Source: an uncultured Chromatiaceae bacterium (GTDB taxonomy: Bacteria; Pseudomonadota; Gammaproteobacteria; JAADHS01). From it: a stretch of 34,307 bases of DNA. Shown piece after piece: positions 16,988 through 19,486 of the stretch. The stretch lies in contig CALZJI010000180.1 in the NCBI GenBank assembly GCA_945787615.1, positions 1 through 34,307 on the forward strand. Direction: 5' to 3'. Below the pieces are notes generated by a model that did not search any database, had not been told where the DNA came from, and worked only from the letters and a program-made list of their open reading frames with translations. The translations under genes and the position numbers were made by a program. Within the stretch, counting starts at the first letter, position 1; the number at the start of each line of letters is the position of its first letter.

Positions 16988-18901
16988 TTATAATTGTTCC
17001 GGGAATAACACCACGTCGGCTGACTGCTTCCACATCTCTATCATTGCACCAAACTCAGCCTGACCCCCTACCCGGATTTGCGTATCCTTGAGCACTGTCT
17101 TGTCCTCATCGGAGAGTGAAGCGGGGTCTCCATCACGCACTTCGTAGACAGAATACACGGCATAGTCACCGCTGGGCAACTGGAACGTACCCACGGATGG
17201 CTGCTCTTCCGTGGGGCGCGCGGTCTCAAACACGACTCGAACCAAGCTGCGATCAATAGAGTCGTCGTTTCGGCCAATAAAACCAGGCCGTTTCCACTCA
17301 AGGTCGAGACCCGTAGCGAGTTCAGTGGGATCCCCACCCTCTCTCATCTGCGCTAAGAATGCTTCGCCGCTAGACTTGGCCTTATCTTTGCCCTGATTCT
17401 TGCGCAAAATCTCAGTTATCTGTTCGCGCACTTCTTCTAACGGTTTAGTGGTCGACGGCTTGTGTTGTTTAACGCGTAAGACAACGACGTCATTTGTCGT
17501 TACCTCTATCAATTCGCTATTGTTTCGATTCTCTAACACGTCAGACTGGAACGCGGCCGTTCTTATCTTGGGGTTATCTGCAATACCCTCGCCTTTCGTT
17601 CGGCTAAACAGCTCGCTCTCTACTACCTCCATATCTAGTACTTCCGCGGCAACGCTCAGCGTATCAGGATTCTCAAACGCTGCCGTCTCCAGTTGTTCAA
17701 CGAGCTCAAAAAACTGCCCGTCAGCCTCGGTGTTGCGATACTCTTGTTCGAGAATTTCGCGTACTTCTTCGAACGGTTTAATCTTACGTGGCTCTATATC
17801 GGTTAATTTTATAATGTGGAAGCCAAAACCGCTTCGCACAATCTCACTAACTTGACCTTTTTCCAACGCGAACGTCGCATCCTCAAAGCTCTTGTCCATA
17901 ATACCTCGGCCGAAGAATCCAAGGTCGCCTCCCTGGCCGGCCGATCCAGGATCATCCGAATAGGTCTTAGCAAGCTCTTCAAACGCCTCGCCCTCTCGCG
18001 CCTTTGCTAAGACTTCCTCTGCCTTTTTTCGCGCCTCTTCAAGGCCGGCCTCATCAGCGTCCGAGTCCACTTGTATTAGAATATGGCTCGCTTTGCGCCG
18101 TTCTTCCGTGCCGAAATTCTCCGCCTGTTCCTCATAACTCGCCAATAACGCGTCTTCATCAACGTCCACCTTCGCTGCCAAATCTGCCATGGCGAGTCGG
18201 ATATATTCGATGCTGACTTGTTCCGGATTGGCAAAAGCCTCAAGATTTCGATCATAGTGTTCTTGTACAGCACTATCGTCGACGGTTATCTCGTCCAAAT
18301 AATTTTCCAACGGAAAGATAACGTAACCGACGGATCGTTCCTGATCACGAAGACGAACTATGTTATTGACGTTTTTCTCTGATACTAACGCGGTGTTCAG
18401 TATGCCGAGTAGAGGTTGATTTAGCAGAAGCGCTCGTCGTTGCTCGAATTCCCACTGAGCCGGAGACATGGCAAGTCGGCTTACGAGTTGCTCATAGAGT
18501 TCACGATCAAAGCGGCCCTCGGTTTGGAACTCTTGTATCTGGTTAATAAAACTAGCGAGCTGCGCATCCCCGATACTAAACCCGTTGTCCTCTGCCACTT
18601 GCACCCTGACTTCTTGTTCCACGAGGGACTGAAGCACTAAATCCTTCGAAACGAGGTTTTCCAACAGCGCGGGATCGATGTTACTACCAAACTGGCCCTG
18701 GATACGCGCGCGTTGCTGATTATAAGCATTTTGGAACTGCCGAAGTTTAATATCGACGTCGTTTACCCGCCCAACGCTGACGTCGGACTCAGGTTCGAAA
18801 TAAGCGTTCACACCCCATACCGCGAAGACCAATATGAGTAAAGCGACGATTACCCACGCGATCCAGCTTTGGGCGCGGTCACGAATAGCCTGCATTAACA
18901 T
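16988..18901 (-). CDS. ppiD: Periplasmic folding chaperone / peptidyl-prolyl isomerase PpiD
   Basis: PpiD is an inner-membrane anchored chaperone at the periplasmic exit of the Sec translocon. The N-terminus is typical ([16 protein letters not shown], then a membrane segment at about 13-33, then WGVNAYF). A SurA-like chaperone region follows. One parvulin domain covers about residues 265-370, with KASHILIQ, the [10 protein letters not shown] loop and GFHIIKL. The C-terminal half is the less conserved helical and isomerase-like part. Length (637) is close to the ~620 of E. coli PpiD. In E. coli, PpiD shows little isomerase activity, so the domain alone does not prove catalysis. Linkage to lon, clpX and tig matches other gammaproteobacteria. 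Confidence 0.93.
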
Positions 18902-19085: not shown

Positions 19086-19092
19086 TAACTTA

Positions 19093-19126
19093 GGGCTCGC
19101 GTCAAAATCAATTCACATTTTGGGCG
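19093..19126 (+). repeat. Left terminal inverted repeat of the MITE-like element
   Basis: This 34-base arm matches the reverse complement of 19379-19412 with mismatches only at 19109 and 19124. Confidence 0.85.
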
Positions 19127-19378
19127 ATGAGGCGCTCGCCTGGCAAAGCTTCCGCGTCCTCGGCAACTGCGTCCTCAATTGCCGTTCCCGACGCAATTCT
19201 ACCTCCTGCGGTCACTTCGGGCTCCTCGGCAACCGCTCCCTGCATTGCTCTAACTCGTGCATCCATGCACTCGTGCCCTCTCATGACACTAGCACATCCA
19301 TGTGCGTCGTCCCTGTAGGCGTGCTCTCGCTCCTTACCTACGTCCATATAGGTAACGCAGCCAGGCGAGATGGATCGA

Positions 19379-19412
19379 CGTCCAAAATGTGAATTAATTT
19401 TGACGCGAGCCC
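19379..19412 (-). repeat. Right terminal inverted repeat of the MITE-like element
   Basis: This 34-base arm pairs with 19093-19126 (32/34). It is followed directly by TTA, the presumed target duplication. Confidence 0.85.
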
Positions 19413-19486
19413 TTAGTCAAGCAGAGGTGATTGTGGCGAAAAACATCGCTAAATTCAAGAAACGCGGATTAATTCCAGAAATAAAA

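Follow-up and report, generated by a model that had tools for sequence, protein, structure and literature searches.

A mobile inverted-repeat element carrying a one-stranded array of GGA-loop hairpins, possibly shaped by CsrA-type recognition

The bacterial MITEs NEMIS, RUP, ERIC and Nezha are dispersed elements with terminal inverted repeats and without a transposase (PMC3733652). REP/BIME repeats are short palindromes of high copy number with a GTAG tag beside the hairpin and an associated RAYT; in REP dimers the two copies are mostly inverted, and the loops of many REPs conform to TY or CMA (PMC3733652). Among RNAs that sequester CsrA, CsrB/CsrC, RsmX/Y/Z and Pf1-3 are built of repeated short GGA-loop hairpins, with 22 GGA in CsrB and 21 in Pf2 (PMC11882849). 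The SELEX consensus of CsrA is RUACARGGAUGU, the GGA lying mostly in hexaloops closed by stems of at most four pairs, and RsmE binds ANGGAN loops in which both N are variable (PMC7652899). The element described here resembles the MITEs named above in its terminal inverted repeats, its dispersed copies and its lack of a transposase. Unlike them, however, it varies in length through tandem hairpin cassettes with GGA loops on one strand, and its chassis spans several phyla, with no parent found.

The window, i.e., the whole stretch of DNA that was analysed, comprises 34,307 nucleotides from an uncultured Chromatiaceae bacterium. A sequence-only reading of it had described a 320-bp inverted repeat at 19093-19412 with arms matching at 32 of 34 positions, and these coordinates and this count were reproduced. 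The left arm reads GGGCTCGCGTCAAAATCAATTCACATTTTGGGCG; the right arm, reverse-complemented, reads GGGCTCGCGTCAAAATTAATTCACATTTTGGACG. With the flanks counted in, the inverted repeat amounts to 39 nt at 92%, and the likeness of the two ends reaches about 52 bp inward at 85%. A direct TTA adjoins both ends (ACTTA ... TTAGT). Its earlier interpretation as a target duplication is supported by sibling elements, which share a 3-bp TWA duplication. The features are as follows.

19090-19092, no strand: target duplication TTA, left copy (target CTTAG)
19093-19126, plus strand: left terminal inverted repeat, 34 bp, end A, then GATGAGGCGCTCGCCTGGC
19145-19360, minus strand: interior array, 12 GGA on the minus strand and 0 on the plus strand
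19225-19274, minus strand: GGA-hairpin cassette of about 50 nt with two hairpins (coordinates read off the window sequence)
19229-19248, minus strand: hairpin GCAAUGC-AGGGA-GCGGUUGC, second hairpin of the cassette
19257-19270, minus strand: hairpin GTGC-AUGGAU-GCAC, ANGGAN loop
19292-19305, minus strand: hairpin GCAC-AUGGAU-GUGC, ANGGAN loop; ACAUGGAUGU fits ACANGGANGU
19334-19355, minus strand: hairpin UUACCUAU-AUGGAC-GUAGGUAA, repeat-unit M1; the closing pair is U-G here
19379-19412, minus strand: right terminal inverted repeat, 34 bp, end B, inward then TCGATCCATCTCGCCTGGC
19413-19415, no strand: target duplication TTA, right copy

The element lies, as the sequence-only reading had placed it, in the lon-ppiD interval, with ppiD (16988-18901, minus strand) on one side and tRNA-Asp, tRNA-Val and lon on the other; an intrinsic terminator stands between the tRNA operon and the element. 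The open reading frames of 19093-19412 include no transposase, again as had been stated. The interior, being a repeat array, leaves one frame open for 90 aa (19120-19392), which is unlikely to be a gene. Such arrays (19120-19392 in the window, and that of locus L010) open in long frames and may get annotated as small hypothetical proteins.

Chance pairing of the arms is ruled out. With up to 3 mismatches allowed, the arm matches the window twice (0.00 expected), and the search of the full genome that had been proposed as a check returned 149 copies at the same threshold, against 0 for the reversed pattern (assembly of 4.06 Mb in 616 contigs, 85% complete). Elements in this genome span 87-499 bp, the commonest form being 155 bp (12 of 49). 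Identical 3-bp flanks were found in 34 of 51 of these elements and in 44 of 64 foreign ones. TTA or TAA stands on both sides in 39 of the 51 elements with flanks, the base before the duplication is C in 38 and the base after it is G in 43; the target of the family is thus CTWAG. Terminal inverted repeats, a target-site duplication, no transposase, dispersed copies and absence from the corresponding interval of two relatives (G002 and G003, see below) together identify 19093-19412, almost beyond doubt, as a MITE, and bear out its earlier description as a complete non-autonomous element. The additional label "recently mobile" goes further than these results: the ends are near-identical in many copies, but no parent insertion sequence was found.

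The 155-158-bp chassis is common to other phyla. Among the matches listed, elements of 156-158 bp with the same ends occur in Desulfobacterales, on a Desulfosarcina plasmid, in an Olavius delta symbiont and in an assembly labelled Kiritimatiellae, and one of 179 bp occurs in an assembly labelled Nitrospirae; one Desulfobacterales genome (G369) contains 186 arms. The exact arm sequence had 0 matches in named genomes, in which the relaxed arm pattern did match. In plasmids, the arm search gave only chance matches, and in viral contigs 0.

No transposase was found between such ends in this genome, at its 85% completeness, or in Desulfobacterales contigs. In both sets, unpaired arms and arm pairs 0.7-3 kb apart were followed as candidate parents and led to ordinary genes or further MITEs. 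PF01609 transposase loci were rejected, their ends being different from those of the element, and in 8 genomes there was neither a match over the cut-off to PF13586 or PF13612 transposases nor an IS5-type transposase with the element's ends. A 3-bp TWA duplication within CTWAG and ends starting with GGG are also features of PIF/Harbinger-Tourist and IS5-type elements. Compared with an IS5/PIF-type MITE, the CTWAG-TWA duplication agrees, whereas the cognate transposase with these ends was not found. From this target choice we infer that the parent should resemble the IS5/PIF-Harbinger group. Insertion of the MITE into a CTTAG target duplicated TTA, and the MITE was presumably moved in trans by a transposase recognising GGGCTCGCG...

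The interior of the element, which the earlier note overlooked, is far from inert: GGA-loop hairpins from a separate cassette family form a strand-polarised array in it. In this genome, hairpin cassettes have entered the chassis and expand in tandem, with the loop GGA on a single strand. In perfect hairpins from all elements of this genome, the loop contains GGA in 82 of 89 cases and TCC in 1, the corresponding counts in the rest of the window being 15 and 18 of 182. CANGGANG occurs 95 times on the GGA strand versus 2 on the other, and its density is 9.9/kb against 0.67/kb. In the elements of this genome, the GGA strand has 78 hairpins with a 4-bp stem and an ANGGAN loop, the opposite strand 3; the 66 elements examined from other lineages, which share the chassis, have none. 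Sibling elements contain up to 21 GGA, the window element 12.

The modules expand as near-identical tandem units of 47 bp (M1). Judged by eye, the 155-bp form has no unit, the 202-bp form has one beside the old core, and the 249-bp form has two in tandem. The 91 M1 copies sampled read CCTAC-ANGGAY-GTAGG. Gathered with the loop left free, they have A at the first loop position in 91 of 91, T, G, A or C at the second (64, 18, 6 and 3 copies), each base of GGA in 90 of 91, and then C, T or G. Hairpin arrays without recognisable arms occur at two further loci of this genome (L015 on contig C158 and L013 on contig C3), so an array can do without the MITE chassis or lose it.

Of 369 sampled genomes of class Gammaproteobacteria, 59 contain a match to the interior of the window element. 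A covariance model of the 50-nt cassette has matches in 80 of 274 sampled Gammaproteobacteria genomes; the matches come from 68 genera, and about 14 genomes have some 20 copies or more, counted under a cap per genome. The two hairpins are found independently by RNAalifold. Across 72 distinct cassettes, 11 of 12 stem pairs undergo double changes (55 cells, a number reached in 0 of 500 shuffles, whose mean is 6.6), and the covariation score is 0.239, compared with 0.092 after shuffling and at most 0.067 after sliding, in an alignment that was itself fitted to the structure. An unfitted alignment (A1) points in the same direction, with 5 of 12 pairs, 15 cells and a score of 0.184 against at most 0.053 slid. 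The cassette is therefore very probably an independent dispersed family with a covarying two-hairpin structure.

Among 105 distinct copies, 98 have ANGGAN as loop 1, with both N free, and loop 2 contains GGA in 100 of 106. The only poorly paired stem position (unpaired in 21 of 72) is the one that uses the A of loop 1. This A is kept in 103 of 105 copies even though 25 have C, A or G at the position that would pair with it; it is thus kept as a base, not as half of a pair. The unpaired linkers CGA, TAG and CCGA are conserved as strongly as the GGA loops. Rfam returned no match to the 320-bp element up to E 5, the CsrB/Rsm families included, and elsewhere yielded tRNAs only, plus 6S at a sibling locus. 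No description of the cassette was found in the open-access part of PubMed Central.

Strong inverted repeats frame 9 of 46 cassettes, nearly all in other genomes, compared with 2 of 700 control positions. These frames differ from one another, among them CTAGGAGCCTGTCGGACTTGAG (L234), TAGGAGGCTGTCCGAAAA (L229) and CTAGCC(C/T)GCAT(A/T)TCTCAC (L230, L233 and L253); the cassette thus rides on chassis of more than one kind. At 892-2647 of locus L313 (contig C602 of this genome) lies an intact IS1380-family insertion sequence with ends CTAGCCCGCATTTCTCAC; these are nearly the same as the ends of the cassette-bearing MITEs L230, L233 and L253.

Three other explanations deserve consideration. A structural RNA gene or riboregulator fixed between tRNA-Asp and ppiD would be in keeping with the very stable fold of the element on either strand (z -9.2 and -10.3), but the inverted repeats account for much of this stability, and many copies of the element lie elsewhere in the genome. 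Moreover, the order lon / tRNA-Val / tRNA-Asp / ppiD is kept in G002 and G003, whose interval is without the element, and the interval between ppiD and tRNA-Asp of a third relative, G001 (L300), contains a different MITE (GGAACGTACACGAAATAACTTCCGAATTTGGCGC...), which is an independent insertion into the same interval. The comparison with G001-G003 is at the level of the interval, not of the exact base, the relatives being too diverged to provide an exact empty site at the nucleotide level; at this level, the search for an empty site in a relative that the sequence-only reading had suggested showed G002 and G003 to lack the element. The two outcomes that it had named as contrary to an insertion, an arm with no other copy and a conserved RNA at this locus in distant relatives, did not materialise. 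In our opinion, a locus-bound RNA gene is extremely improbable.

The interior might also be the passive filling of an ordinary MITE, i.e., old captured repeat DNA grown by slippage and recombination, with GGA constant by descent only. The random orientation to genes, the expansion by near-identical 47-bp units and the weakness of the promoter-like sites within the element all suit this account. It nevertheless meets a difficulty in the 72-106 distinct cassettes from many genera, in which the stems covary, A and GGA are fixed and both N vary; because descent alone does not predict this combination, we consider it unlikely, if worth keeping in mind. The conservation of the linkers points to a further constraint, which may be a REP-like signal for mobilisation. 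The cassette could be pictured as REP-type DNA, a hairpin with a GTAG tag, which a RAYT transposase mobilises and whose loops and linkers that enzyme maintains. The likeness to REP/BIME (PMC3733652) lies in short palindromes, high copy number and (G)TAG beside a hairpin: TAG is invariant and GTAG is common immediately before hairpin 2, with the first G variable and the window copy reading GTTAG. RAYT-type Y1 transposases are also present in 18 of 20 cassette-rich genomes versus 10 of 16 cassette-free ones. The cassettes differ from REP/BIME, however, in their GGA loops, in their tandem head-to-tail order (L242) and in their distance from the RAYT genes examined: within 1.5 kb on each side of 30 Y1/RAYT loci there was no full cassette and one weak 25-nt match. 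The complete genome G239, moreover, has 18 cassettes and no Y1 match. A RAYT-mobilised origin of the cassette thus strikes us as rather improbable.

Recognition by CsrA/RsmA, which we prefer, is the best-fitting account of the loop rule, since the cassette loops, with two free N and a conserved A, agree with what is described for CsrA and RsmE; that CsrA-type recognition shaped the cassette is, judged by these loops, about an even proposition. The element contains short-stem ANGGAN hairpins and several GGA sites per RNA, and the genome carries a single canonical copy of csrA. CsrA RIP-seq in Pseudoalteromonas fuliginea BSW20308 gave the motif AuGGA (PMC11882849), and a plasmid of strain Bsw20308, pPBSW1, carries the cassette at 785710-785759 of its record. 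Like CsrB/CsrC, RsmX/Y/Z and Pf1-3 (PMC11882849), the elements consist of repeated short GGA-loop hairpins, with up to 21 GGA per element compared with 22 in CsrB and 21 in Pf2. Unlike those RNAs, they are dispersed transposable copies without an Rfam match, known here from sequence alone. The linkers count against CsrA, because binding alone would not require them to be as conserved as the loops.

Several further observations weigh against this reading. The promoter-like sites inside the element are weak and none is convincing, and the intrinsic terminator cuts the element off from the tRNA operon. In this genome, the GGA strand is sense to flanking co-directional genes in 8 cases and antisense in 9, i.e., random; in other genomes, where genes were called by ORF length only, a weak bias of 18 sense to 10 was observed. 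Single stem changes of the G-U and A-C types number 13 to 27 in all and about 13 to 8 without the loop-closing pair, and a strand call from them does not favour the GGA strand.

We infer that the array may be transcribed and bind CsrA. If the strand with the GGA loops is transcribed, each element would become a multivalent CsrA/RsmA ligand, and dispersed copies could work as small mobile decoys or provide untranslated regions with CsrA sites. A net decoy effect in the cell is possible, although doubtful. The stronger proposal, that a cassette of about 50 nt evolved to bind CsrA/RsmA and rides several unrelated MITE chassis in Gammaproteobacteria, the copy number of the elements tuning the free pool of the regulator or each insertion rewiring it at its own site, is offered tentatively, as less likely than not. 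Taken as a whole, a MITE carrying an independent GGA cassette with a putative CsrA/RsmA ligand role seems to us a reasonably probable explanation of the locus. No paper linking MITEs and CsrA sites, and none of the hairpin sequence strings, was found in the open-access part of PubMed Central.

Should CsrA bind the cassettes, mobile DNA would be spreading binding sites of a global post-transcriptional regulator across genomes. Each insertion would bring a CsrA site or decoy with it, and the control of carbon storage, motility and biofilm would be influenced by MITE load. Even if the ligand is not CsrA, the covarying two-hairpin cassette is present in 80 of 274 genomes and in several inverted-repeat frames, with no Rfam match and no description found.

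Several minor observations concern the family in this genome and its relatives. In G001, a copy of the chassis occupies the rpsO-pnp interval, flanked by TAA at either end. Minimal elements of 41 bp (L094 near 4014, L101 near 3664 and L126 at 4843) consist of scarcely more than the outer ends GGGCTCGCGC...GCGCGAGCCC, and most have TTA or TAA on both sides. A second repeat type (L185 at 2636, L190 at 2237 and L010 at 2853) shares the outer end GGGCTCGCG but has a different interior (TTCGCGCCCAGATTTGGGTCAGATT...); a similar interior is also present in Desulfobacterales (L090 and L138). At L035, a 218-aa frame inside one element copy or remnant, on the inner side of the arm at 1031, resembles the start of an integrase-type transposase. 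Finally, a 6S RNA gene (L183, 3256-3440, contig C379) lies near two copies of the element.
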